Part shown: positions 6,720-24,002 of the stretch, piece by piece
Position numbering within the stretch: position 1 is the first letter of the stretch
How the letters are laid out: each line of letters starts with the position of its first letter
IMG/VR virus record: IMGVR_UViG_3300021964_008752
Location: 1-24,002 of that record
DNA length: 24,002 bases
Source of the DNA: a virus
Reading direction: 5' to 3' (one strand)
Position numbers and translations under genes: made by a program
The notes under the pieces: model-generated
Databases searched by the model: none
Told to the model about the DNA's origin: nothing
Seen by the model: the letters and a program-made list of their open reading frames with translations, nothing else

Positions 6720-7169
6720 ATGGGAAAACATTACAGTACAAAACACTACGGACACAACATTGGTTTATCGGCAGTATTCCGTCAACCTAACGCAGATCAT
6801 TCACACTGTCATTTACTACACGGTTACAGTCTAGCATTTACATTTACATTTGGATGCGATGAGCTAGACAACAAAAACTGGGCAGTAGACTTTGGAGGAC
6901 TAAAGCCTTTAAAGCAGTGGCTTGAAGATCATTTCGATCACAAGACAGCAATTGATAAACACGATCCACACTTGGATACATTTTTAAAATTACAAGATAT
7001 GGATCTAGCAGAAATTGTTATTATGGACGGAGTCGGTGCGGAGAAGTTCGCAGAACACGCATTTAATTTTGCTGACAAACTAGTACGTGAAATGAGTGAC
7101 AATCGTTGTTATTGTGTAAAAGTAGAATGTGCCGAGCACGGTGCTAATTCAGCGATCTATGAAAAATAA
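6720..7169 (+). CDS. 6-pyruvoyl-tetrahydropterin synthase / QueD-like protein (149 aa)
   Basis: This is a T-fold enzyme family that converts 7,8-dihydroneopterin triphosphate to 6-pyruvoyl- or 6-carboxytetrahydropterin. The latter is a step toward preQ0, queuosine and 7-deazaguanine DNA modifications. The active-site pattern is visible: Cys30 in CHLLHGYS (family C-x3-H-G-H), Asp73-His74 in FDH, and Glu136 in VKVEC. The ending NSAIYEK also fits. Two of the three zinc ligands look replaced: the AAH histidine aligns with Phe20, and the second His of HGH with Tyr36. Extra histidines (27, 29, 31) lie near Cys30. A GGAG site is 6-7 nt upstream. The stop overlaps the next ATG (TAATG). No queC, queE or folE is in the window, so partners would be elsewhere or from the host. 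Confidence 0.85.
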   Translation: MGKHYSTKHYGHNIGLSAVFRQPNADHSHCHLLHGYSLAFTFTFGCDELDNKNWAVDFGGLKPLKQWLEDHFDHKTAIDKHDPHLDTFLKLQDMDLAEIVIMDGVGAEKFAEHAFNFADKLVREMSDNRCYCVKVECAEHGANSAIYEK

Positions 7170-9014: not shown

Positions 9015-9719
9015 GTGAATAAATTTATATTTGATGTCGATGGCACACTTACTCCTAGTAGAGGAGTTATCGACGAGTCTTTTAGTAAATGGCTATATGA
9101 CTTCATGCGGGAGAATGATGTATATTTTGTAACAGGTAGTGATGCTGGAAAGACTATTGAGCAAGTAGGCGAAGATATTTTTCGTAAGGCAAAGTACAGT
9201 TTTAATTGTAGCGGTAACGAAGTTTATCAATTAGGAAGTCTTGTTTATAAAAACAATTGGCAATGTCCAGACGACTTATGGTTATGGTTAGAAGATAGAT
9301 TGTATCAAAGTGTGTATAGTCCTAAATACGGAAGAAACTTTGAAGAACGTACTGGAATGTTAAATTTTAGTATTGTTGGGCGAGAAGCAGTTGGCGATCA
9401 AAGAAAAGAATATTATGAGTGGGATAAAATTAATAATGAACGTGAAGGATTAGCAGACTATATTAACAGTCACTGGCATAATATTACAGCAAGTGTCGGT
9501 GGTGAAACTGGCATTGATATTTTTGAAAAAGGGACAGACAAAGCTCAAGTTATTAAATGGTTTAAAGAAGATGATAATCTAATTTTCTTTGGTGATAGAA
9601 TTGATCCTTCCGGAAATGACTGGTCATTAGCACAAGCAATTATTGACAATCAGATGGGACTGTGCTATAATGTAAAAGATTATAATGAAACATGGGATAT
9701 TTTAAAAACATATGGTTGA
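9015..9719 (+). CDS. Eukaryotic-type phosphomannomutase-like HAD enzyme (234 aa)
   Basis: The start is GTG with an AAGGA site 7 nt upstream. HAD motif I is FIFDVDGTLTPSR, with nucleophile Asp7 and acid Asp9. Motif II-like VTGSD is at 39-43. The cap region GMLNFSIVGR (114-123) and then YYEWDKINNER match the sugar-phosphate-binding cap of human/yeast-type PMM (HAD-IIB). A GGETGIDIFEKGTDK segment and motif IV GDRIDPSGND (Gly193-Asp194, Asn201-Asp202) follow. The length is close to the 246 residues of eukaryotic PMM and unlike the roughly 450-aa bacterial alpha-phosphohexomutase (ManB). The family interconverts mannose-6-P and mannose-1-P, which feeds GDP-mannose synthesis. The nearby glycosyltransferases support a sugar-modification role. 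A plain HAD phosphatase activity cannot be excluded. It overlaps the next gene by 8 nt. Confidence 0.85.
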   Translation: MNKFIFDVDGTLTPSRGVIDESFSKWLYDFMRENDVYFVTGSDAGKTIEQVGEDIFRKAKYSFNCSGNEVYQLGSLVYKNNWQCPDDLWLWLEDRLYQSVYSPKYGRNFEERTGMLNFSIVGREAVGDQRKEYYEWDKINNEREGLADYINSHWHNITASVGGETGIDIFEKGTDKAQVIKWFKEDDNLIFFGDRIDPSGNDWSLAQAIIDNQMGLCYNVKDYNETWDILKTYG

Positions 9720-10284
9720 AGTTTATAATGTGTTTCCAACACTGATAATGGTTTTTGATTTAAGTCAGCATCCTGCTAATCAACGACTAAAAGATCTAAT
9801 TGAAAAAACTCCTACAGGTACACATGCTCTAGTAGGTAAAGGAACTAGTACATATAAAGAAAGTACCAGTAACAGTTTTTTAAAAAATCCTACAATTTCA
9901 GACTTTACTATATCTATACAGCAATGTATAAATCAATTTACAGCACAGGCAGGACTTCAACCTTGTAGCATTAAAAATAGTTGGTTTAATAAAATGGGCA
10001 AGGGCGGGCAAACTATTATACACAGACATGAGTTTAGCACTATAAGTGGTGCGTATTATCCTATTTGGGACAATGACTGTTGTAATTTAAGATTTAGAAG
10101 TCCTATAGCACAGTGTAAAATGTCAGAGATGTCAGATAGTCAGCAAACAATTTATAATTCAAATGAACAAGAAGTACAAGGTGGCGTAGGAAAGTTAATT
10201 TTGTTCCCTAGTCATCTAGAACATTATACTCCAAAAAACAATTCAGACGAAAGATGGGTAGTAAGTTTTAATGCTTCTCATTGA
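9712..10284 (+). CDS. 2OG-Fe(II) oxygenase (190 aa)
   Basis: This matches the group of small 2-oxoglutarate/Fe(II) oxygenases common in marine T4-like phages (PF13759/TIGR02466 type). The double-stranded beta-helix core is visible: SWFNKMGKGGQTIIHRHEFSTISGAYY, with proximal metal residues around His104-His106-Glu107. Then come a CNLRFRSPI strand, GGVGKLILFPS and the distal HLEHY (His171), with Arg181 in DERWVVSFN positioned to hold 2-oxoglutarate. Such enzymes hydroxylate proteins or small molecules; the target here is unknown. Translation is probably coupled to the PMM-like gene (8-nt overlap). Its stop codon lies inside the -35 box of the uvsE promoter. Confidence 0.85.
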   Translation: MVEVYNVFPTLIMVFDLSQHPANQRLKDLIEKTPTGTHALVGKGTSTYKESTSNSFLKNPTISDFTISIQQCINQFTAQAGLQPCSIKNSWFNKMGKGGQTIIHRHEFSTISGAYYPIWDNDCCNLRFRSPIAQCKMSEMSDSQQTIYNSNEQEVQGGVGKLILFPSHLEHYTPKNNSDERWVVSFNASH

Positions 10285-10314: not shown

Positions 10315-11427
10315 ATGGATTTAAAATTTACAACAGCAGGTGACTATTTGAAATCGCAACAAGATACACATCGTATAGGCTTTGCTTGCAAATACATGCA
10401 CCCTGATCAAACACAGAAAAAGAAACTGCTTGAAGAGATTCAACGTCCATTAAATACTCGTAGCACAACAGTACAGTGGCTTAACAGACAGACACGTGAA
10501 GTTGCTGAACAACGTCTATGGGATATCATGGTCCATAACATACAAAGTTATTGGAACCTTATTAACTATGTAGGAGGATTACCGAATGAACTTAGAATGG
10601 TTAGGTTGGGAAGTGACGTCTTACCTGTTTATACTCAGCGTGATTGGAGTTACTTCTGGCGCAAGCCTGATGTACGAAAATATTGCGAGACCAACTTCGC
10701 TCACGTCGGCGCAAAAGCTCGTGAACTTGATGTTAGGTTGTCTATGCATCCTGGTCAGTTTACTGTACTTGCGTCAGATAATCCTGATATAGTAAATAGA
10801 AGTATAGAGGAGTTTGAATATCATGTCGACGTCATTCGGTGGATGGGTTATGGCCAAAATTGGCAGGACTTCAAGTGTAACGTCCACATCTCAGGCAGAC
10901 AAGGTCCAGCCGGTATCATCAACGCACTTCAACGATTGTCTCCAGAAGCACGAAACACACTTACTATTGAAAACGACGAAATGTGCTGGGGACTCGACGC
11001 AAGCCTCGAACTTGAAAAACACGTCGCACTCGTTCTTGACATACACCATCACTGGGTCCGTACAGGAGAATACATTCAACCCACCGACCGTAGATTTGAC
11101 CGCGTAGTTGAATCGTGGCGTGGTGTGCGTCCTGTTATTCACTACAGTGTAAGCAAAGAAAATCTACTTACAGATTGGCCTAATAATGAATTACCTGATA
11201 TGGAATATTTGTTAATGAAAGGATTTAAAAAACAGAAACTCAGAGCCCACAGCGACTTTATGTGGAATAAAGCAGTTAATCAATGGGCTATGAGTTTCTG
11301 GGATAGGGCCGATATCATGGTAGAATCTAAATGTAAGAATCTTGCCAGTATCGGACTGTATGAAGAATTTAAGTCTTCTTCTTTGCTGGGCGACCACGCT
11401 TCGCCGGAGCCTTTGCTGGCTTCTTAG
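10315..11427 (+). CDS. uvsE: UV-damage endonuclease UvsE/UVDE (370 aa)
   Basis: This TIM-barrel endonuclease nicks DNA 5' of UV photoproducts (pyrimidine dimers and 6-4 products), starting light-independent repair. The family blocks occur in order: RIGFACKYM near residue 21, TTVQWLNRQ near 52, RMVRLGSDVLPVYTQ near 94, LSMHPGQFTVLAS (His145), NVHISG (His191), TIENDE (Glu219, 217-222), LDIHHHW (His244-246), VIHYS near 276 and RAHSDFMW near 305. These supply the metal-binding His, Glu and Asp residues. There is no good ribosome site; AAAGG is 14 nt away and the promoter abuts the ATG. The last 59 nt overlap, tail to tail, the AT-hook gene on the other strand. The stretch 10861-11160 is about 49% GC, against about 27-37% in the sampled flanks. 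Confidence 0.93.
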   Translation: MDLKFTTAGDYLKSQQDTHRIGFACKYMHPDQTQKKKLLEEIQRPLNTRSTTVQWLNRQTREVAEQRLWDIMVHNIQSYWNLINYVGGLPNELRMVRLGSDVLPVYTQRDWSYFWRKPDVRKYCETNFAHVGAKARELDVRLSMHPGQFTVLASDNPDIVNRSIEEFEYHVDVIRWMGYGQNWQDFKCNVHISGRQGPAGIINALQRLSPEARNTLTIENDEMCWGLDASLELEKHVALVLDIHHHWVRTGEYIQPTDRRFDRVVESWRGVRPVIHYSVSKENLLTDWPNNELPDMEYLLMKGFKKQKLRAHSDFMWNKAVNQWAMSFWDRADIMVESKCKNLASIGLYEEFKSSSLLGDHASPEPLLAS

Positions 11428-11938: not shown

Positions 11939-12123
11939 GTATCGAACAAAAAGTTGAAAACATTAAACAGCGTATTTCTATGCTTACTGAAATGATTAAA
12001 ATTGGTGAAGAAGAAATTAAAACGCCTAAATTAAAAGATAATTATATGGCTCAAAAATACAAAGAACTAAATGATGCCTATGCTGAGATAAAGAAATATG
12101 ATCCAGATTACAGAAATAGCTAA
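11935..12123 (+). CDS. 62-aa coiled-coil hypothetical protein
   Basis: The start is TTG at 11935, supported by GAGGG 8 nt upstream. The product is almost wholly helical and charged: EQKVENIKQRISMLTEMIKI, then GEEEIKTPKLKDN, then a second helix KYKELNDAYAEIKKYDPD. The heptad-like spacing of Ile, Leu and Met suggests a coiled coil or a helical hairpin. No family is recognised. Its 3' end overlaps the IscA gene by 26 nt in another frame, so the two are co-expressed. A partner role for IscA is possible but unsupported. Confidence 0.6.
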   Translation: MSIEQKVENIKQRISMLTEMIKIGEEEIKTPKLKDNYMAQKYKELNDAYAEIKKYDPDYRNS

Positions 12124-12418
12124 AAATAAAATTAATTCTTTTATAGACAAGAGAGAAAAAACACTAGGTATCCGTATTGGAGTTAAAACCACAGGGTGTA
12201 ATGGGCTATCATATGTTTTAGAATACGTAGATACACCAGACGACCACGATCAATTACACAATGTAGACGGCGTTGAAGTATATGTAAATCCTAAAGATCT
12301 TGTGTATCTAAAAGATATCACTATTGACTACAAAAATGAGAAGTTTCAAGAAGGCTTTGACTTTATAAACCCAATTGAATCAGGACGTTGCGGTTGCGGA
12401 GAAAGTTTTCACATCTAA
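12098..12418 (+). CDS. iscA: IscA-type Fe-S cluster carrier (106 aa)
   Basis: A-type carrier proteins bind iron or Fe-S clusters and hand them to apo-proteins. All three conserved cysteines are present at almost the same positions as in E. coli IscA: Cys34 in KTTGCNGLSYVLE, and Cys98 and Cys100 in the terminal GRCGCGESFHI. The body shows GIRIGVK and VLEYVDTP, closely following bacterial IscA, and the length is right. The GCGESFH ending favours IscA over SufA or ErpA. ATG 12098 has a weak GAGA site. No iscU or scaffold gene is nearby, so the product would feed clusters made by the host to host or phage Fe-S enzymes. It converges on the zinc-ribbon gene with a 4-nt overlap. Confidence 0.93.
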   Translation: MIQITEIAKNKINSFIDKREKTLGIRIGVKTTGCNGLSYVLEYVDTPDDHDQLHNVDGVEVYVNPKDLVYLKDITIDYKNEKFQEGFDFINPIESGRCGCGESFHI

Positions 12419-12784: not shown

Positions 12785-15700
12785 ATGGCAAGAAAAGAGA
12801 TTAATATCGGTGTAGAGGGCAATGACGGCACCGGTGATAGTATTCGTGATTCGTTTGGCAAGGTAAACGATAACTTCCAAGAAATTTATGCTGTACTAGG
12901 CTTAGGCGGCGCATTAAGTTTCATTGGATTAGACGACGTAGCTCAAAACAGTTATCGTACAGAAGATAATAATAAAATCCTTACAGTTGATTCAAACAAC
13001 GAAAAAATACAATTTACAAAATTAGACAGTAACGAAACAATCGTTATTGATTCTAGCGTACCGGGTGTAATTAAATTTAGTTCACTCGCTTCAGCACTTA
13101 TTAATGACCCAGATCCGACACTTGCCGCGGATATGGACGCAAACCAAAAGCGTATTACTTCACTTGCTGAAGCACAGTTAGACAATGATGCGGCAACAAA
13201 AGGCTATGTAGACGGTAAACTGTCACTCGCTGGTGTTGATGCTATTGATGAAAACGGAAATATTGAACCAGACTGGGGTACTATGTCAGGTCCCCTTATC
13301 CTTTCACGTAACCCAATTGATACAGATGATGTTAACTATGGTGGTTTGATTGCTTCTACCAAAGCATACGTTGACAGTAAGACATTTATTTCGGCAAATA
13401 ACTTGTATGTTGCTACAAACGGTCAGGATGAAAGAACAGATATTCCATTAAGTCAACAAGGTCGTTCACCTTCAACAGCCTTTGCTTCTGTTAGTAAAGC
13501 CGCTGAAATCGCAGAAGAACTAGTTAAGGCGGCACCAGTCGAGCTAGGACCTTACCAAAAGACATTAACATTTAATAACGGTACACAAGATTGTACACTG
13601 GTATCATTAATTCAATCTCCATTGTCAGGAAACGGTGCGGCCGGCGATGTTGAAATGCAACTTGACGAAACACAAGTAGTTGGAATTATTAACGGTGGTA
13701 CAGACTATGAAATTGGAACAGAACTTACACTAACAGGTGGTATTGTCGTTGTTCCAGCAGTACTAAGAGTAGTTGCTAAAGACTTTGCTGGTTCTATTAC
13801 ACAAGTTGCTATTATTCAACCTGGTATTTTTAGTACGCTTCCAACAGATATTACAAATGTAGGACACGTTTCTGCTGTATCTGGTAGCGGTACTGCTAAG
13901 TTTAGTGTTAAATTTAGTGTAAACAGGGTTCTTGTTTCAGCAACAGGTTCAAACTACGGTAGTGCTTCTGTTATCTTTAACGGCGGCGGATTTACAAGAG
14001 CCGCTGAAGCAAGTACATTAGAGATTGCCGGCGAAATTAAAGAAGTAAACATTCTAAGAAAAGGTGTTGGATATACTAGTATTCCAACTATTGATATTTT
14101 CCTACCAAGAATGTTGGTTAGAACAGACAACTTAGGAACAGACTTTACTGATGACCTAAGAGAAGGGCAGTTATTACGTGGAGCAACTTCAGATGCTATT
14201 GCTAAGATTATTTCACATGATGCTCAACGTGACGGAAGTGGTAACGAAATCTTTGAAGTTGAACTACTACAGGGTGCGTTTCAATTAAATGAAGTAATTC
14301 AATACGGCGACCCGGCACAAAACATACAAATTACAATCCAAGTTGAAACAGGTATCTACTACGAACATTTTCCAATTAGATTATCACCAAACGTTTCATT
14401 AAGAGGTGACGAATTTAGACGTAGTATTATTAGACCTAAGCCTGGCGTATCTGAATCACCATGGTCTAGAGTGTTCTTCCGCAGAGATACTGTAATTGAT
14501 GGATTGAATGTTACACCATACGAGTTTGGTTATCAATATTTGACTGATCCGTTAGATTTCTCAAGTCAACCTAAGAACAACGATCAGATGGATGTGTTCT
14601 TATGTGCTGATGCTACCATTGTAAGAAACCTAAGTGTTCAAGGACACGGCGGATTTATGATGGTACTAGATCCAAACAATCAAATTAATTCTAAATCACC
14701 TTACTGTCAAACAGGTTCATCATTCTCTAAAAGTATTAACGTTAAAAACTTTGCTGGTGGACAATTTGTTGACGGCTTCATGGGTAACCTAGATGGTATT
14801 TTATTATATAGAGCTGATGAAACAGGTGTACTAACTAGAAATCCAGAAGGCGGAGATGAAAATAAAATTGTAATTGGTGGCTTACAGCGTGAACCACAAC
14901 TTCCAACTTCGTTTAATATTGGCGAAGACATTTATAGAATTACACTAACAAATAGAGTTGAATCTGCGTTCTTTGACGCAAAGGTTCTTGTTGAACAAAA
15001 CAAAACATTCATTCAAGAAGAAACAATTCAATGGCTTGCTACACAAAACTTAGGCTTTACTTTTGATGAAGATAAGTGTAGACGAGATGTTGGATTAATT
15101 GTCGATGCTGTTGTTAGTGATGTACTCTATGGCGGCTATGAAGAATCAACTAGAGCAGGTAGATTATACTTCTCAGGTGGTCTTACTGTTGTTGCCGGAC
15201 AAGTACTTGCTACTTCATCAGCAATTACTAAAGCAAGAGACATTGCTGTGACCTGTGTACAACAGAATACATGGCCAGCATTAGGAACCGTTGCTCAAAC
15301 AAAAATTGCTAGTATCACAAACGCTGAACAAGGCGGTGCGCAACAAGAAGTACAAAACTGTTTTGACATTGTAGCAAACATTATTCGCTACGGTGAAAAA
15401 ATGTACATTGCTAAGAAACTTTTACAAGAAAATAAAGAGTTTATTCAAGCTGACGTTATCGGATATCTTTCTGTTAACTATCCTAACCTTAATTATGACA
15501 AGGCTACTTGTTTTAGAGACTCAGGATATATTATTGATGCTTTAAGTATTGACTTGTTTGGTAATGCTCCAAACGCAGGAGCAAGTGATCTAAACCAAGG
15601 TAACTTTAACAACTCTATTAGAGCAGGTTATAGTTACTATAGAGCAGGTAAGAAACTTATTCCGTCAAGTGGCGACCCACAAATTGATAATCAATTGCCA

Positions 15701-18700
15701 GCAACACTTGATGCTGTTGAACACATTAATATCAGAGTTGGAGAAATATTAACTAACAATACTCCGTCGGGTGTGTTTATTGGTCAAACATTTGATCCTA
15801 ATACTACACTTGATGTAACTTCAAATGAATTTACCATTGCTAACCACGGGTTTAATACAGGTTCAAGAGTTATATATACCAACGGTGGCGGCGCATCAAT
15901 TGATACTGCTGATGGCGGTACGTTGGTAAACAGTGGAATCTACTTTACCTATAAAATTGACGATAACAGATTTAAAATTTATGAGTCATTCGAACTTGTT
16001 AGAGCACAAGAAAGAGATCCGGGTTCTGAGTTTGAAATTGATTTTGCTGGATTTGGTACAGGAACTTCTCACACAATCAACTGGGATGTAACACAAGACG
16101 TAACACTAACTGCTACTGATCTTGCTGATTCAGGAATTAATGATGCTGTTAGTACTTCAATTGGTTATATGAAAACTTTGATTGCTGGTGACAGTGCGCA
16201 AGCAGGTGAAGCGTATGCTTCGTTTGGTGACTCAACCGGCGTTCCAAGTGTTTATCCGCTTTATGAGTGTGTGCTTGATAACCCATATGATAAAATGACT
16301 GCTGGTAAGGTAACACTTGCTACTCCAGGTAACAAATCAATGCTTGGTAATGACTTTACTCAAGTTAACGATATGGGCTATGGTGTGTTTGCTACAAACA
16401 ACGGTCTAGTTGAATCAGTATCAATGTTTACATACTATTGTTATACAGCATACTTTGCAAACAACGGTGCGCAGATTAGATCATTGAACGGATCATCAGC
16501 TCATGGTTTCTATGGAATTAGATCAAATGGTGCTGATCCAAACGAAGTTCCGGATAGAGTTGGATTGAAATTCCCACTTATTCAAACTGGTTCGGTCTAT
16601 GAAGACAGACCAGTTGATGTAGTTAATGACAAAACTACTGCTAAGGTTTATGTAGCAAACGTTTCATACCCTCCATTCCCAGGTTGTTTTGTTGAAATTG
16701 ATCACTCTAATGACCCTCAAAGAGCAGGCGGAACAAGTTCTATTGGACTTAGAGCATACAAGATTACAGCAATTTCATCTAGTGGTTTACCATCAGGCAC
16801 ATATGAAATGTCAATTGATACTGATATCAGTGACGGCGGACTGGCGGCTGATGTTCCAGCAGGCAAAAAAGTTATTATTAGATCGTTTGAAGAATTTACT
16901 ATTACTGACAAAGTTCAGGTTGTTAGTACTAGACCTTCAACTGCTCTTGTATTTGATGAAAGCTCAGGCATTGACAACGCTGTTATTAGAGTACTTTCAT
17001 TCAACGGCTTTAATGGTGTTGATGCCCAAGAAGGTGATCAAACAATTAGTACAAAAGACGGATTTCCATATGTTAACTTAAACGTTAGAAAACTTGAAGC
17101 AGGATTTACACCGCCAACATATACAAATGGTCTAGGCGATGACGCTATTGCTGTTCAATCACTTGAGCCAGCACAGGCTGCACGTTTAACTAAACCAACA
17201 ACTGGTTATGCTATCTACGATGGAAGTAGTGTAACAACAGGCGGAATGCTTTTTGGTTACCAAGACAGCATTTACGAAGTTACTGGATATAAAGATGTTG
17301 ATATTTTAGACGGCGGTGGCAATAAAATTGCTAGTTATGGTGAAGTTTCATTCAAGAACATCACAGACAATAACGAATCACTTATTAACAAAACATTTAC
17401 TATTACAGGAGCAACAGCAACAAGTACAATCACTGTAACAGTATCAGGTTCACTGGCTGATCTAAGACCAGGAAGACCAATTAGAATCACAGGTGCTGAT
17501 AACGCATCATTCAATGGCTTACACTATGCCGGAAATGTTACTGCTAATACATTTGATTTGTATAGTGACATAAATTTAACCACACTAGTAGACGGTAGTG
17601 GTTTTGGTTCGGCAGCCACAAGTGGTACTGTAGAACTGTTTGGCGGAGCTACTGTAGACTTTGGTGCTTCACTAGAAAATGTACAGCTCAAAGCAGGTAT
17701 TAGAGCAGGAGCACAAGGACAAGTTACTGTTAACATCTCAACTATGAGAGCAACAGGACACGACTTCCTAGATATTGGTACAGGATCATATGCTGATACT
17801 AACTATCCATCAAACATTTTTGGTCCTCCTAATAACAATCCTCTACAATCCAACGAAGCAGTTGAACAAGGAACTGGGCGTGTGTTCTGGGTATCATCAG
17901 ATCAGTCAGGTAACTTTAGAGTTGGTGAATTTTTTGCTGTTGACCAAGGTACTGGTAAAGTAACACTTGATGCTAAGATCGACTTACAAGGTCTTACAAG
18001 TTTAAGACTTGCGGCTGGCGAAACTGTAAGTGAATTTACAGGAGATGTTACACTAGGTGGGGCAGGCGAAGCAAGTAACCAAGCACTTCCAACTGAAGCG
18101 GCTGTTAGAAGTTATATTGATAGACGATTAGGTCTAACACACGAAGGTGGAATTCAAACTGTACTAATTGGTCCAGGTTACTTACCAAGAGACGGCTCAC
18201 GTCAAATGACTGGTCCAATTGATATGAGTAACAATCCTGTTACAGGTTTACCAGATCCTGATGTAGGTATCGAAGGCGAAACTGAAGCAGTTAGAAAATC
18301 ATATATGACGATTGGTAATCTTCAAGATGCTCCAGAAGGATGGATGTTTGAAGAGGATCCAACAGATCCAAACGCAAAAAGACAACCAGATTACAGCTAT
18401 GTTGAAAGTGCTGACATTTTAGCATTTACAGGCAATGGATCTACTGAGTTCTCAAATGCTACAGTTGTTGGAGCATTAACATTTACGTTCCAACAGAATG
18501 CTGTAGGTGTTCCAGATGCTATTGCGCCAACCGTAACAAACTATCCTGATCCACAAATTGTTGCTACAATCAACGACAATGTTATTGTTAACGCAGATGT
18601 TAACTATGACGCAGGAATTGAACAGCACAAATTGTCTTTAAACACCGCTAGAACAACAGAACCAGAAGGAATTATTGTTAACGGTTATACCTATGTACCA

Positions 18701-20152
18701 GAAACTTCACCAGGTGCTGGAGATGATTACACAGTTATTACAGCTAACATTGATCACAAGTTAACAAATGGCGATGCTGTTGTTATTAGCGATGAAACAG
18801 TTGTTACTGCTATTAATGGTGACTGGCAAGCTACAGTGATTTCTGATAGACAGTTTTCTATTCCGGCAGATACATCAGCAGGCGGAGTACTTAGCGGCGG
18901 TGTAATTAGACAGTACGGTTTAATAAGCGGTGCTCAAGAATTAGAATTTACACTAGTAAATGGATTTTTAGAACTTAAAGATTCAACTAGTGCTACAAGA
19001 ACCGGTGCTTACTATGACGGTATTGGTCTTGATAAACTGAGATTTGTTGATGTTGCTGTAATTGATGCTACTGATGATACAAATCTTGCTGTAGGCGAAG
19101 GAACTAAAGTTCTTGCTAGAAGATCTACTCCAGGCGGTATTGGTAATCCTAAAAACGGACATCCTGTGGCAATTGACGCCAGAACAATCGTTGATGACGG
19201 TCTAGGTTGTCGTAGACCAGACTTTGGCGACATTGGTGTTATGATTCGAATTGGTACAGGCAATGAAGCGTCTGACTTTGGTACTATTGAAAAGACTTCT
19301 TCAAGTACTGTTAACACAGTTGTTGAAAGAAGTGGTACTGGTAGCGCAGACTTTGCTGGAACTTCAAACTTTGAAAATCTAACAGCTGATGGTAATGTTA
19401 CTATTAACGTAAGTGACGGTGTTGAATCTGGTAACTTGTCAGACTTAGAAGGTCTATGGATGACATACGCGGCTAACACTGCTCCGGTTATTACAAAACA
19501 CGAACAAAGTGCAGCTAATAATTCTTACTATACAATTTTTAGAAACGGTACAGGTGGCGTTGCTATTAAAGCACAGTACAGTGATGTATCAGCTGATCAG
19601 TGGACTGAGTACAGAGCAGGCACACACAAATTTAGAACCACTGGCGGAAGTGCTGGTTATGTTGAAGTCGGAAGTGGCGGCTTCCTAACTGCTGAAAAGA
19701 ATAATACCTCAGCTATTGGTAGAATCGAAGGTAATTGGCAATTAACAGCAGGTAGTAGAATGCAAGCTACTTGGGCTGACTTAGCTGAATATTACGAAGG
19801 CGATACAGAGTACGAAGCAGGCACAGTTGTCCAATTTGGTGGTGACAAAGAAGTTACACAATCTGGAGAGCTTGGAACACACAAAGTTGCTGGTGTTGTA
19901 AGTACTGAAGCGGCATACATTATGAATGCTGATTGCCCAGGTACAAAAGTACTTGTTGCTTTACAGGGTAGAGTACCATGTAAGGTTATTGGCAAGGTTG
20001 AAAAAGGAGATTTAATGATTGCGAGTGGTATACCAGGTGTTGCTACAAGCGCAGGAGGCGAGGCTTCACCAGGAACAATAATTGGTAAAGCTATTGAAAC
20101 TTACGATAGCGATCGAATAGGAACGATTGAAGTAGCAGTGGGGAGACTATAA
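12785..20152 (+). CDS. Giant virion structural protein with beta-helix and C-terminal G2-like domain (2455 aa)
   Basis: The start has GGAG 7 nt upstream. The N-terminus (DSIRDSFGKVNDNFQEIYAVLG) is a helical anchor motif shared by marine T4-like fibre proteins. ATKGYVD and STKAYVDSK segments (near 138 and 191) are fibre-shaft features. Residues about 300-440 carry beta modules ending GVGYTSIPT. Residues about 519-670 (YYEHFPIRLSPNVSLRGDEF) and 1196-1245 look like pectin-lyase-type beta-helix. A Cys/Arg-Asp module is duplicated at about 737-825 and 882-998. A SHG-type module is near 1012-1077, and GRVFWVSSDQSGNFRVGEF is near 1698. The last 135 residues (WADLAEYYEGD, GTVVQFGGDKEV, VALQGRVPCKVIGKV) resemble the peptidase G2 autocleavage/trimerisation domain of phage appendages. 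It is probably a tail-fibre or baseplate-associated protein; the exact position is unknown. Confidence 0.92.
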   Translation: MARKEINIGVEGNDGTGDSIRDSFGKVNDNFQEIYAVLGLGGALSFIGLDDVAQNSYRTEDNNKILTVDSNNEKIQFTKLDSNETIVIDSSVPGVIKFSSLASALINDPDPTLAADMDANQKRITSLAEAQLDNDAATKGYVDGKLSLAGVDAIDENGNIEPDWGTMSGPLILSRNPIDTDDVNYGGLIASTKAYVDSKTFISANNLYVATNGQDERTDIPLSQQGRSPSTAFASVSKAAEIAEELVKAAPVELGPYQKTLTFNNGTQDCTLVSLIQSPLSGNGAAGDVEMQLDETQVVGIINGGTDYEIGTELTLTGGIVVVPAVLRVVAKDFAGSITQVAIIQPGIFSTLPTDITNVGHVSAVSGSGTAKFSVKFSVNRVLVSATGSNYGSASVIFNGGGFTRAAEASTLEIAGEIKEVNILRKGVGYTSIPTIDIFLPRMLVRTDNLGTDFTDDLREGQLLRGATSDAIAKIISHDAQRDGSGNEIFEVELLQGAFQLNEVIQYGDPAQNIQITIQVETGIYYEHFPIRLSPNVSLRGDEFRRSIIRPKPGVSESPWSRVFFRRDTVIDGLNVTPYEFGYQYLTDPLDFSSQPKNNDQMDVFLCADATIVRNLSVQGHGGFMMVLDPNNQINSKSPYCQTGSSFSKSINVKNFAGGQFVDGFMGNLDGILLYRADETGVLTRNPEGGDENKIVIGGLQREPQLPTSFNIGEDIYRITLTNRVESAFFDAKVLVEQNKTFIQEETIQWLATQNLGFTFDEDKCRRDVGLIVDAVVSDVLYGGYEESTRAGRLYFSGGLTVVAGQVLATSSAITKARDIAVTCVQQNTWPALGTVAQTKIASITNAEQGGAQQEVQNCFDIVANIIRYGEKMYIAKKLLQENKEFIQADVIGYLSVNYPNLNYDKATCFRDSGYIIDALSIDLFGNAPNAGASDLNQGNFNNSIRAGYSYYRAGKKLIPSSGDPQIDNQLPATLDAVEHINIRVGEILTNNTPSGVFIGQTFDPNTTLDVTSNEFTIANHGFNTGSRVIYTNGGGASIDTADGGTLVNSGIYFTYKIDDNRFKIYESFELVRAQERDPGSEFEIDFAGFGTGTSHTINWDVTQDVTLTATDLADSGINDAVSTSIGYMKTLIAGDSAQAGEAYASFGDSTGVPSVYPLYECVLDNPYDKMTAGKVTLATPGNKSMLGNDFTQVNDMGYGVFATNNGLVESVSMFTYYCYTAYFANNGAQIRSLNGSSAHGFYGIRSNGADPNEVPDRVGLKFPLIQTGSVYEDRPVDVVNDKTTAKVYVANVSYPPFPGCFVEIDHSNDPQRAGGTSSIGLRAYKITAISSSGLPSGTYEMSIDTDISDGGLAADVPAGKKVIIRSFEEFTITDKVQVVSTRPSTALVFDESSGIDNAVIRVLSFNGFNGVDAQEGDQTISTKDGFPYVNLNVRKLEAGFTPPTYTNGLGDDAIAVQSLEPAQAARLTKPTTGYAIYDGSSVTTGGMLFGYQDSIYEVTGYKDVDILDGGGNKIASYGEVSFKNITDNNESLINKTFTITGATATSTITVTVSGSLADLRPGRPIRITGADNASFNGLHYAGNVTANTFDLYSDINLTTLVDGSGFGSAATSGTVELFGGATVDFGASLENVQLKAGIRAGAQGQVTVNISTMRATGHDFLDIGTGSYADTNYPSNIFGPPNNNPLQSNEAVEQGTGRVFWVSSDQSGNFRVGEFFAVDQGTGKVTLDAKIDLQGLTSLRLAAGETVSEFTGDVTLGGAGEASNQALPTEAAVRSYIDRRLGLTHEGGIQTVLIGPGYLPRDGSRQMTGPIDMSNNPVTGLPDPDVGIEGETEAVRKSYMTIGNLQDAPEGWMFEEDPTDPNAKRQPDYSYVESADILAFTGNGSTEFSNATVVGALTFTFQQNAVGVPDAIAPTVTNYPDPQIVATINDNVIVNADVNYDAGIEQHKLSLNTARTTEPEGIIVNGYTYVPETSPGAGDDYTVITANIDHKLTNGDAVVISDETVVTAINGDWQATVISDRQFSIPADTSAGGVLSGGVIRQYGLISGAQELEFTLVNGFLELKDSTSATRTGAYYDGIGLDKLRFVDVAVIDATDDTNLAVGEGTKVLARRSTPGGIGNPKNGHPVAIDARTIVDDGLGCRRPDFGDIGVMIRIGTGNEASDFGTIEKTSSSTVNTVVERSGTGSADFAGTSNFENLTADGNVTINVSDGVESGNLSDLEGLWMTYAANTAPVITKHEQSAANNSYYTIFRNGTGGVAIKAQYSDVSADQWTEYRAGTHKFRTTGGSAGYVEVGSGGFLTAEKNNTSAIGRIEGNWQLTAGSRMQATWADLAEYYEGDTEYEAGTVVQFGGDKEVTQSGELGTHKVAGVVSTEAAYIMNADCPGTKVLVALQGRVPCKVIGKVEKGDLMIASGIPGVATSAGGEASPGTIIGKAIETYDSDRIGTIEVAVGRL

Positions 20153-21315
20153 TGCCATTAACAACACTTTACAATACAACTAATCACCCACTTACCTGGG
20201 ACAAAGTAAACGAAACACTAAAAGCAGTTGACGATAATTTTACATTTGTTAACTCACAAGCAGTGACAGGCGTGCTACAAGACCTATCACAAGATATTAC
20301 ACCTAACATAGTTGGAACATTTGACTTAGGTACTACAACACAACGTTGGGATAATATCTATGCTAATAACATTTCAGTTGTTAATTCAATTACAACAAAC
20401 ATTACAGGCGACTTAACTGGTAGTGTGTTTGCTGATGATAGTTCAATTATTATTGATGCTACTGAAGGAACACTAACTGGTAACTTAACTGGTGATGTTA
20501 TTGGTAACTTAACTGGTAATGTTATAGGTGACTTAACTGGTGATGTTACAGGTGATGTTACAGGTGATGTTACAGGTGATGTAACTGGAAACGTAACAGG
20601 TAATGCTGGAACCGTAACAAATGGTGTTTACACAGCGGGCGACCAAACCATTGCCGGAGTAAAAACTTTTTCAAATACTATTGTAGGTAACACGCAAGGA
20701 ACACACACAGGCGGTGTTGTTGGTAATGTTTTAGGAAACATTGATGGTGATGTTACTGGTAGTGTTTATTCAGAAGATAGTTCAGGTGTGTTAGTTGATG
20801 GATTACACGGAGTACTTAACACATACAAATTAGATCAAGTAGGCGCAACTGACGGACAAGCTCTTGTATGGAGTGCTTCAGGACAAAGATGGGAGCCAGG
20901 CGCTGGCGGAGGCGGTGGAGGCGGAATCGGGCTAGGTTCAAGAACTACTAAATCAGGAAGTACTTCATCTATTGCTGACGGGACTATTGGAAATACTACA
21001 ATTACCGGAGCATTTAAATCTTATATGGTTTTAAAATTACAAGTTGATGCCGCGGCTTGGGTAAGAATTTACACAGATACCGCAAGCAGAACTGCCGATG
21101 CTAGTAGATTGGAAACTGTTGATCCTGCTCCAGGAGCAGGTGTAGTAGTAGAAACTATTACAACAGGTGCTGATACAATATTGATTAGTCCAGCAGTATT
21201 AGGTTTCAACAACGAAAGTCCTGTTACTGATGTAATACCTATAGCAGTAACAAATAAATCAGGTATTACGCAAGCAATAACTGTTACACTTACATTACTT
21301 CAATTAGAGGCATAA
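20152..21315 (+). CDS. Glycine-repeat fibre with poly-Gly hinge (387 aa), candidate adhesin
   Basis: The start ATG overlaps the preceding stop (TAATG) and GGGGAG lies 6 nt before it. The N-terminus (TWDKVNETLKAVDDNFTFVN) is the same kind of anchor helix as in the 2455-aa protein, implying attachment to the same structure. RWDNIYANNISV near 61-74 is a common fibre motif. Residues about 105-150 are tetrapeptide repeats Gly-Asp/Asn-Leu/Val-Thr. Then come QALVWSASGQRWEPG, a seven-glycine run (about 251-257) and a 130-residue beta-rich C-terminal domain (SYMVLKLQVDAAAWVRIYTD; ending ITVTLTLLQLEA). A flexible Gly hinge before a compact tip is typical of host-recognition domains, so it is a good receptor-binding candidate, though unproven. 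Confidence 0.88.
   Translation: MPLTTLYNTTNHPLTWDKVNETLKAVDDNFTFVNSQAVTGVLQDLSQDITPNIVGTFDLGTTTQRWDNIYANNISVVNSITTNITGDLTGSVFADDSSIIIDATEGTLTGNLTGDVIGNLTGNVIGDLTGDVTGDVTGDVTGDVTGNVTGNAGTVTNGVYTAGDQTIAGVKTFSNTIVGNTQGTHTGGVVGNVLGNIDGDVTGSVYSEDSSGVLVDGLHGVLNTYKLDQVGATDGQALVWSASGQRWEPGAGGGGGGGIGLGSRTTKSGSTSSIADGTIGNTTITGAFKSYMVLKLQVDAAAWVRIYTDTASRTADASRLETVDPAPGAGVVVETITTGADTILISPAVLGFNNESPVTDVIPIAVTNKSGITQAITVTLTLLQLEA
20470..20605 (+). repeat. 12-bp tandem repeat array in the fibre gene
   Basis: About eleven copies of a 12-base unit encode Gly-Asp/Asn-Leu/Val-Thr/Ile. Three copies at 20539-20574 are identical (GGTGATGTTACA) and a diverged fourth follows. The unit length keeps the frame on gain or loss, so fibre length can vary by slippage. 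Confidence 0.85.
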
Positions 21316-21318
21316 CAG

Positions 21319-24002
21319 ATGGCTGTTGTTACACAGAACAAATACATTGTAACTGCTTATACCATGGAAGGTATGGAACGGTTACGTACCCAAATAGTTA
21401 ATAAAGGGCAAGCTCCAGAAAAGACAGTAATTAATAGATCAGTTAAATGCGCCGAAGAAAGGCCTAAAAGCAGATCTACAACGTATTGGCTTACTTCTAG
21501 AGAAGCAATATCTTTAAAATTAAATCCAGATGTTAGATCAGTTCAACCATATCCATCAGACATGGGAGTTCAACCTGAATTACATGCTATTACACAGACC
21601 TCTAACTTTTCTAGATCAGTTGGGCAGAATAGTAATCATAAAAATTGGGGACTGTTAAGATCTATTGAAGGCGGATTAAATGAAGATTGGTCGGGTGATA
21701 ACACTCAAACTATTACACTAACTGAAACAGGCAAAAATGTTGATTGTATCATTTGTGATAATAACGGGTTAATTACCGGACATCCGGAATACGCTGTGAA
21801 CGCCGACGGCACCGGCGGCTCAAGAGCAAATGCTTATGATTGGTTTACTGAACACCAAGCTGAGGTCGGAGGTGATGGTGCTGGAACAAACTACAGTTAT
21901 GGAACAGCATATCATGCTGTTCATGTTATGGGAACAGTTGGCGGTAATACACAAGGGTGGGCACGTGATGCTAACCTTTATAACTTATATTATTATACAG
22001 GAGCCGTAGGAAATACTAATTTTCCATATGTTTATGATTATATTAGAGAATTTCATAGAACAAAAGCAATTAATCCAGACACTGGTGTCAAAAATCCTAC
22101 AGTTGTAAACAGCAGTTGGGGCATGAGTATTTTCCCACAACAATGGACTTTTGGTGATATCACTGCGGTGACTTACAGAGGAACACGCTACTTGCCAGCA
22201 AGTCTAGAGTTTTTAGTAGATGGCCATTGCGGAATATATTCTTCAACATCAAATACTGATCTAGCTCGTTTTATACTTGGTGCTGGAACTAATGCTACTA
22301 ACAGTTATCTTCAATATAATTGTTCCACTTCAGGTACTGAAACACAAGTATCGGCCGAAGGAACACTTAATCCACAACCTCAAGGTGGCGCACCTGACAT
22401 TGGATGGACAAATTCAGGAGGAAAAGTTGCGTACTTTACTAGCCAAGAAAGGTTAGAAACAATAACCCAGAAAGTTTTTATACAAACCCTACCAGTAGGC
22501 GGAGGAGTGACTACTTTTACAGCAGACATTCTACAAGACATGTCATATGCTACTCCTACAGGAACTGTAGATCTAACTACTAGAGTTGAGGTAACGGATC
22601 CAGATCTTATAACAACAACATTTACTAACGGTACCTATACAGGAGCATCAGTAAATAATGTAATCAATGAGACTATTACCATAAACAAAGCAGGCTACTG
22701 GATTGTTGAATTCTTTTATACATATAGCACTGCTCCTGACAGTCCTACATACGATAACACTTTTAGAGTTACACTTAATACTTCGTACACTGATCAACCA
22801 AGCGCAACGGCAACTTTAGTAGCGTCTGGAGAAGCAAATGTAAGTATCGACTCTATTGCTGGATTAAATGCCGATACCACTCCAAGCGTTGGAGATAATG
22901 ATGACGGATATTGGGTTGTAAACTTACCATGGAACGTAACATTCTTAGAAGAAGATTATTCTACTTTACATGTAGGAACTAATGGTTATGTAACTTTCGG
23001 CGGAGGTAGCATTGTAGAGCCAGGTCAAGATCCAAGTCTAGTGCCTTATCCTAAGATTATGATAGGTAGTGGTAGTAAATCTTCAGACACAGATACTGCT
23101 ACTAGTGGTCAAAGAATATATTGGGGTGCTGTACCTACTGGTATATATACCACCCCTGTTAATACTTACAGCGTAGATGCTGTTAACAACAGTAACATTT
23201 CATATATATTAAGTGGCGGAACTGATAGAAATGGAGCTGTTGCCGGCGACAGTGCTACTATTAATATTTTAGTAGGTGATACTATTGAAATAACAAATAA
23301 TTCAAACTTTATTCATCCTTTGTATATTAAAACTGCTCAAATTTCAGGAACTGGTGATCAGGTTATTGGTGCGACAGGTCAAGGCGCTACGCAAGGAAAT
23401 ACCGTGAGCTGGACTCCAACACAAACTGGAACATACTACTATCAATGTAGCAGTCATACTTCAATGAATGGTCAAATTGTTGTAGGTGCTAACGATACTT
23501 CGGAATATTTTAGATTAGTGTTTGAAGGATCCAGTACCGCATCCGGAGTTGTTGGATCCCCTGATATAAGATGGGAAATAAGATTTGATGAATTAAATCC
23601 TGATCAGTTTAGAGTCATTACTGAGGAAATTAATCAATACACAACAACTGGAGATAGTGGATTCACTGATGCTGAATTAAATGCGTTTGGATTCTTACCC
23701 GGTAAGAGAATTCCTGTTCCGGTCGACGCACTAGACAGTGACATCGAAGATGCTATTGCTGAAGGAATTATTAACATAGGTGCAGCAGGAAATGGTCAAT
23801 GGTACCATGCCGCTCCTGGGGATCAGGATTGGGATAATACATTTGAAATGGGAACCCGATATCCTGATTCAGTAAACTTTCCTTACTATTATATGCGAGG
23901 AACTTCGCCAACTCGAGTTGATACTGCAGCAACTGGAGGCTATGAGCTTCCAACTATTTGTGTAGGAGCATTTGGAAACCTAGATTTTCTAGATGAAAAA
24001 AT
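21319..24002 (+). CDS. Subtilisin-like (S8) protease with a nested blue-copper domain, partial (first 894 aa)
   Basis: I translated this by hand from ATG 21319 (AGAGG 8 nt upstream); the frame is open to the edge. Residues about 5-90 resemble an I9-type propeptide (LTSREAISLKLNPDVRSVQP). The S8 motifs follow: Asp147 in CIICDNNGLITGHPEY, His199 in YHAVHVMGTVGG, VVNSSWG at 263-269, and the oxyanion-hole Asn825 in IINIGAAGNG, then TICVGAFGN. The catalytic Ser (GTSMA-like) must lie past the edge. His to Asn normally spans about 90 residues, but here it is 626, because of a large insertion at about 300-800. The insertion holds a beta domain (LPWNVTF, HVGTNGYVTFGG; FRLVFEGSSTASGVVGSPDI), which is itself split by a cupredoxin (626-722) with His666, Cys710, His713 and Met716. 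There is no signal peptide. It is probably a virion-borne protease (inference). Confidence 0.9.
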   Translation, partial: MAVVTQNKYIVTAYTMEGMERLRTQIVNKGQAPEKTVINRSVKCAEERPKSRSTTYWLTSREAISLKLNPDVRSVQPYPSDMGVQPELHAITQTSNFSRSVGQNSNHKNWGLLRSIEGGLNEDWSGDNTQTITLTETGKNVDCIICDNNGLITGHPEYAVNADGTGGSRANAYDWFTEHQAEVGGDGAGTNYSYGTAYHAVHVMGTVGGNTQGWARDANLYNLYYYTGAVGNTNFPYVYDYIREFHRTKAINPDTGVKNPTVVNSSWGMSIFPQQWTFGDITAVTYRGTRYLPASLEFLVDGHCGIYSSTSNTDLARFILGAGTNATNSYLQYNCSTSGTETQVSAEGTLNPQPQGGAPDIGWTNSGGKVAYFTSQERLETITQKVFIQTLPVGGGVTTFTADILQDMSYATPTGTVDLTTRVEVTDPDLITTTFTNGTYTGASVNNVINETITINKAGYWIVEFFYTYSTAPDSPTYDNTFRVTLNTSYTDQPSATATLVASGEANVSIDSIAGLNADTTPSVGDNDDGYWVVNLPWNVTFLEEDYSTLHVGTNGYVTFGGGSIVEPGQDPSLVPYPKIMIGSGSKSSDTDTATSGQRIYWGAVPTGIYTTPVNTYSVDAVNNSNISYILSGGTDRNGAVAGDSATINILVGDTIEITNNSNFIHPLYIKTAQISGTGDQVIGATGQGATQGNTVSWTPTQTGTYYYQCSSHTSMNGQIVVGANDTSEYFRLVFEGSSTASGVVGSPDIRWEIRFDELNPDQFRVITEEINQYTTTGDSGFTDAELNAFGFLPGKRIPVPVDALDSDIEDAIAEGIINIGAAGNGQWYHAAPGDQDWDNTFEMGTRYPDSVNFPYYYMRGTSPTRVDTAATGGYELPTICVGAFGNLDFLDEK

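Follow-up and report, generated by a model that had tools for sequence, protein, structure and literature searches.

A predicted blue-copper-type domain nested in a phage S8 protease is a module shared with cyanophage tail proteins

Cupredoxins, S8 proteases and phage-borne plastocyanin genes are all already known. The plastocyanin gene petE, for example, was present in 10 of 16 cyanophage genomes (PMC3037559), and a report on Alteromonas phage R22Y describes a tail fibre with putative iron-binding domains (PMC11705849). In the literature searched, whose coverage leaves out most subscription journals, we found no description of a copper or cupredoxin domain in phage tails, and databases annotate the phage proteins that carry the module discussed below as protease, connector or hypothetical.

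The stretch of DNA analysed here (the window), 24,002 bases long, is the record of a marine-type virus of bacteria. Near its right edge lies an S8-type protease gene within which, as the first-pass annotation had proposed, a domain of the blue-copper type is present. The features needed to follow the analysis are given below, with the type of evidence in parentheses; L004 is a homologue 64% identical to the window protein.

12785..20152, + strand: 2455-aa tail-fibre-like protein (weak T4 gp9/gp10 N-terminal match; phrog_9851 tail fiber)
20152..21315, + strand: 387-aa neighbour (phage structural/tail similarities)
21319..24000, + strand: S8-type protease gene, incomplete, with 894 codons ahead of the right edge (L004 matches PF00082 at 2e-17)
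21319..21585, + strand: N-terminal alpha/beta region, residues 1-89 (predicted secondary structure of L004 residues 1-98)
21586..22173, + strand: N-terminal part of the S8 catalytic fold, residues ~90-285 (proteinase K-like, Z 33.9 in L004)
21757..21759, + strand: Asp147, catalytic Asp (invariant in 45/45 homologues)
21913..21915, + strand: His199, catalytic His (invariant in 45/45 homologues)
22861..23139, + strand: split beta domain, N-terminal half, residues 515-607 (domain-free homologues, model)
23140..23499, + strand: predicted cupredoxin domain, residues 608-727, of which 626-723 were reported first (Pfam, PDB matches, model, structure matches)
23314..23316, + strand: His666, predicted copper ligand (invariant in 29/29 copies; plastocyanin alignment)
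23446..23448, + strand: Cys710, predicted copper ligand (plastocyanin alignment, 29 copies)
23455..23457, + strand: His713, predicted copper ligand (plastocyanin alignment, 29 copies)
23464..23466, + strand: Met716, predicted axial copper ligand (plastocyanin alignment, 29 copies)
23500..23643, + strand: split beta domain, C-terminal half, residues 728-775 (domain-free homologues, model)
23686..24000, + strand: S8 fold, C-terminal part, starting at residue ~790 and truncated ahead of the catalytic Ser (homologue alignment, L004 model)
23791..23793, + strand: Asn825, oxyanion-hole Asn (invariant in 45/45 homologues)

Full-length homologues of 1045-1049 aa are 61-63% identical to the window protein from end to end, and judging from their lengths approximately 150 codons are missing past the right edge. 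The predicted secondary structure of residues 1-89 suggests that this region is possibly an I9-like propeptide. In the L004 model, the N- and C-terminal portions of the chain come together as a catalytic fold of the proteinase K type that superimposes on 5wsl (Meiothermus keratinase, 34% identity) with a Z score of 33.9 and an rmsd of 2.4 over 277 residues. The window gene ends before the position of the catalytic Ser, which lies in a GTS-M motif in all 42 homologue rows that reach it. Because Asp147, His199 and Asn825 are also invariant across the alignment, the protease family is very probably active. A broken protease can be ruled out for the family on the same grounds, and the window gene simply runs off the edge.

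Since the 2455-aa tail-fibre-like protein is encoded upstream, the protease gene appears to be placed in a tail gene cluster. The match of this neighbour to PF07880 (1e-4) scores 22.8 bits, just under the cut-off of 25. Homologous proteases of S-H9-1, S-CAM4 and P-SSM2 are likewise found among tail or baseplate genes, and this gene neighbourhood, together with homology to tail proteins, makes it likely that the window protease is virion-associated. Elsewhere, the window carries genes for a UvdE-type UV endonuclease (10315-11427; PF03851, E = 4e-36) and a phage-borne A-type iron-sulphur assembly protein (12098-12418; PF01521, E = 2e-19), in addition to PTPS-like (6720-7169), phosphomannomutase-like (9015-9719) and 2OG-Fe(II) oxygenase (9712-10284) genes that likely represent a row of sugar or modification genes.

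Several lines of evidence identify residues 608-727 as a cupredoxin, an assignment that we regard as virtually certain. First, the Pfam model PF00127 (Copper-bind) matches residues 642-722 with E = 5e-6 and 27.3 bits against a cut-off of 21.2, and the TIGR02657 (amicyanin) and TIGR02656 (plastocyanin) models match the whole protein at ~8e-5. Second, plastocyanins and amicyanins in the PDB are matched, the plastocyanins with E = 2e-4 in a single-sequence phmmer search and 6e-8 when a profile of phage copies is used. Third, an AlphaFold model of residues 515-775 has a mean pLDDT of 88.9, with values of 93-96 over most of the cupredoxin. Structure comparison of residues 608-727 by VIA-align returned cupredoxin-fold copper proteins as all 50 of the matches listed, the best among those listed having a Z score of 11.1 and an rmsd of 2.4 over 98 aligned residues, and rusticyanin and amicyanin are among the Foldseek matches to the model. 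The fold prediction therefore yielded the cupredoxin sandwich expected from the first reading of the sequence. The segment originally reported (window 23194-23487, residues 626-723 of the open reading frame at 21319-24000) does lie inside the cupredoxin; the model and structure matches indicate that the folded domain is better taken as residues 608-727 (window 23140-23499). These HMM scores and the fold, together with the conservation described below, rule out a chance motif.

The predicted ligands His666, Cys710, His713 and Met716, like His199 and Asn825, are located exactly where they had been placed previously, and the last three ligands have the Cys-x2-His-x2-Met spacing of the amicyanin type. 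All four are in register with PDB plastocyanins, with His666 aligned to the first His ligand, and this alignment to known structures suggests that they form a single cluster. An alignment of 29 copies of the domain, whose identity to the window copy falls to 22%, has just five columns without any variation: those of the four ligands and that of a Tyr located two residues before the Cys. To limit the bias of loci that had been fetched with a Cys-His-Met search motif, which were counted separately, a further count was restricted to complete copies that fall outside this motif; 48 of 51 such copies keep all four ligands, and the other three have lost all four. All four ligands are also kept by 117 of 117 distinct complete copies in or next to gp9, which were found by patterns outside the ligand region. 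Homologues thus do not routinely lose the ligands. The three ligand-less copies (in L146, L148 and L150) carry E, S, N and A/V at the ligand positions and reside in proteins that also contain an intact copy; they are part of tandem cupredoxins that follow the S8 domain. Loss of all four ligands together is the behaviour expected of a metal site that is used, and from these sequence patterns it is very likely that the window cupredoxin binds copper.

The site nevertheless departs from the standard type at one position. The Asn that usually follows the first His ligand is absent, and Pro667 is found in its place, as is Pro in nearly all phage copies. This substitution weakens the claim of an ordinary blue site, but not the claim of a cupredoxin. 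Judging from azurin and rusticyanin, Pro at this position should weaken a hydrogen bond to the Cys sulphur, raise the potential and favour Cu(I). The phage copies are accordingly predicted to have an unusual and probably high copper potential.

The cupredoxin belongs to a larger stack of beta domains, approximately 450-500 residues in total, that separates a conserved SWG segment from the helix preceding Asn825. The entire block therefore sits between the catalytic His199 and the oxyanion Asn825, as first described. We take SWG to be the wall of the substrate cleft by subtilisin numbering (segment 125-128), and if so the beta stack should leave the fold beside this cleft. Within the stack, the cupredoxin splits a beta domain whose strands flank it on either side in the model, and domain-free homologues are continuous across this point, with QRIYYGVEGT directly joined to APNRTYRVRVEG. 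Most homologues of the window protease lack the domain and have a short, plain hairpin turn instead (QRIYYGVEGTAPNRTYRVRVEG).

Gain and loss at this hairpin can be traced among close relatives. The protease L073 carries the domain and its near relative L052 does not, and their flanking sequences are nearly identical on both sides. Presence and absence between near-identical proteases indicates that neither folding nor catalysis depends on the module. In a tree of the host proteins built with the cupredoxin removed, the nested state needs at least four changes, all forced by well-supported branches, while the C-terminal cupredoxin state needs two. In the cupredoxin tree, the window-type copies form one clade (98/96), and the L073-type copies group in another part of the tree, close to the copy from a P-SSM2 tail fibre; this P-SSM2 copy is 67% identical to the L019 copy. 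At least two different cupredoxins therefore appear to have been placed in the same hairpin, which on these trees has been entered by a cupredoxin more than once. The L073 protein has a second insert of ~110 residues (residues ~411-522) that is also missing in L052. At six loci (L053, L054, L067, L045, L052 and L019), two S8 protease genes adjoin, the first being more divergent.

Nesting is not unique to the window protease, a point that the first-pass annotation missed, but is one outcome for a mobile module shared with gp9 and other cyanophage tail proteins. In related S8 proteins the catalytic domain is followed by between one and three cupredoxins or, in one case (L118), preceded by three; L092-L094 have one inside the S8 catalytic domain, at a loop other than that used in the window; and P-HM1 encodes one large protein in which the S8 domain is flanked on both sides by cupredoxin copies. 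Searches with two other phage subfamilies recovered 326 and 359 phage records, nearly all from cyanophages and mostly gp9, the baseplate wedge tail-fibre connector. Only the first ~60 residues of Syn9 gp9 resemble T4 gp9 and gp10, and its residues 304-406 are a cupredoxin. We collected 84 gp9 loci, consisting of viral loci from a Syn9 gp9 scan (with patterns outside the ligand region) and four isolate loci, and the C-terminus of gp9 is a cupredoxin in 82 of them. In these loci (L178-L261, e.g. L178:2062-3279) the C-terminal cupredoxin has four ligands, and the gene after gp9 contains weaker, partly degenerate copies. The module is far commoner than the protease. Among distinct module-bearing frames, 166 have a single copy and no S8 match. 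A further cupredoxin-like match occurs in a 4898-aa frame (L263) on a 364 kb viral contig whose own S8 protease (L035) is without the domain. Two limited, pattern-based scans of bacterial genomes, covering 84,980 species, found no cellular relative of the module. Given this distribution and the ligand patterns, cyanophage-type tails are probably copper proteins.

Taken together, these observations are consistent with the hypothesis that the domain is an exchangeable, copper-clamped surface module of tail proteins, which in the window protein would lie beside the protease cleft. We give this explanation as a whole an even chance of being correct. The gene product would be an S8 protease of the proteinase K type that belongs to the phage tail region and is probably active. 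Its catalytic fold would be interrupted by ~450-500 residues made up mostly of beta domains, beside the substrate cleft if the analogy with subtilisin holds. At the hairpin tip of the last beta domain, the cupredoxin would hold one copper ion through His666, Cys710, His713 and Met716. The same module would circulate among tail and baseplate proteins of cyanophage-type viruses as a rigid, degradation-resistant and exposed beta-sandwich, docking the protease, or elsewhere a fibre or connector, either on a neighbouring tail protein or on the cell surface. Copper would then serve as a structural clamp rather than as a redox cofactor. In this picture the predicted fold, the conserved ligands, the modularity and the recurrence are what the analysis shows; copper loading, virion location and protease activity are inferred, and a docking role is suggested by the position and turnover of the module.

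The spread of the module through connectors, fibres and proteases argues for a general, exposed building block, and its pattern of presence and absence is more readily explained by a structural-copper surface module than by a switch through which copper or redox state would control the protease. The mechanical unfolding of azurin is altered by copper (PMC5792602), an effect that fits a part that is load-bearing or exposed to proteases. Two observations count against the explanation. Perfect conservation of the ligands, with free turnover of the remaining sequence, could reflect a chemical (redox) role, and the protease can evidently do without the domain, which most homologues lack altogether. 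A docking or structural role, as opposed to a redox one, has in our view an even chance of being right, and docking or stiffening is the best-supported reading.

The most interesting rival holds that the site acts as a sensor of the copper level or redox state close to the cell, through which protease activity or tail behaviour is altered. In addition to the near-perfect retention of the ligands amid sequence drift, S8 and cupredoxin domains have been joined repeatedly and in varied orders, as if the pairing mattered, and the insert should exit the S8 fold near the substrate cleft. However, most of the close homologues in which all catalytic residues are retained have no nested domain, the module occurs just as often without a protease, as the single-copy frames lacking an S8 match attest, and no electron-transfer partner was found encoded in the window. 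We consider such a switch unlikely. The broader proposal that copper state controls a tail enzyme or the tail-fibre connector, with type-1 sites reading surface copper or redox state to time proteolysis or adsorption, is a quite doubtful one in our estimation.

Equally unlikely, in our judgement, is that the module is purely a recognition domain whose conserved Cys-His-Met cluster binds in vivo no metal, or another one (Zn, Ag, apo). The nearly universal Pro for Asn after the first His does imply that this is not a standard blue site, and the protein is without a recognised export signal, such that copper loading inside the cell is not assured. Arguing against this reading, even highly divergent copies retain all four type-1 ligands as well as the loop length of amicyanin, and the joint loss of all four ligands, where it occurs, is again what a used metal site would exhibit.

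Storage or scavenging, in which the virion would carry copper either to keep it bound away from itself or to supply the host with it or deprive the host of it, as a copper counterpart of the Ferrojan horse, is highly improbable. Some single proteins do contain several copies of the module, and if gp9 is present in the copy number of its T4 namesake then each virion would have many. However, a capacity of one metal per 100 residues is low for storage, copper genes were not seen clustered with the module, and the three degenerate, ligand-less copies persist. Finally, plastocyanins and amicyanins are the best sequence relatives, but an electron carrier like host plastocyanin is scarcely credible for a fused domain of a large protein located in tail genes, with a score of 23 bits against equivalog cut-offs of 110 for amicyanin proper (TIGR02657) and 88 for plastocyanin proper (TIGR02656); a free plastocyanin or the capture of a host gene is ruled out by these low scores and by fusion of the module in tail-type proteins.

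If the site is filled, the tails of abundant marine viruses would be copper proteins, and through gp9 alone every tail-fibre joint of a cyanomyovirus would have a copper site. Ocean copper would thereby be linked to phage adsorption, and a function would be given to domains now labelled hypothetical. Gain and loss of the module at one hairpin tip also constitutes a clear natural experiment on modular tail evolution.

Among described systems, the closest to the module itself are amicyanin and plastocyanin (PF00127), with which it has in common the fold, the four ligands and, for amicyanin, the C-x2-H-x2-M loop. The phage module differs in residing inside tail-region proteins rather than acting as a free periplasmic or lumenal electron carrier, and in having HP where HN is usual after the first ligand. 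The window gene is predicted to encode a type-1-like copper domain that is complete and lies within an S8 protease, and not a free plastocyanin. Cyanophage petE likewise encodes a copper protein, but it is a stand-alone metabolic gene, whereas the module is a domain of the tail-region protease and of gp9. The R22Y tail fibre and the Ferrojan-horse idea similarly involve a putative metal site in the tail of a marine phage, although the metal reported there is iron rather than copper and the domain is not a cupredoxin. Proteinase K-like S8A subtilases such as aqualysin and Meiothermus keratinase share the catalytic fold (Z ~33-34) and the conserved D, H, N and S residues, but the window-type fold is split by ~450-500 residues of beta domains that include the cupredoxin. 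Cyanophage S8 proteases (PHROG 9158, the 'subtilisin-like serine protease' of S-H9-1 and S-CAM4, and PHM1_104 of P-HM1) carry the same module; in the S-H9-1, S-CAM4 and P-HM1 proteins it lies outside the catalytic domain, and their records are labelled protease or hypothetical, with the copper domain named in none. Cyanophage gp9 (PHROG 677) has the same cupredoxin at its C-terminus with all ligands, and no protease.
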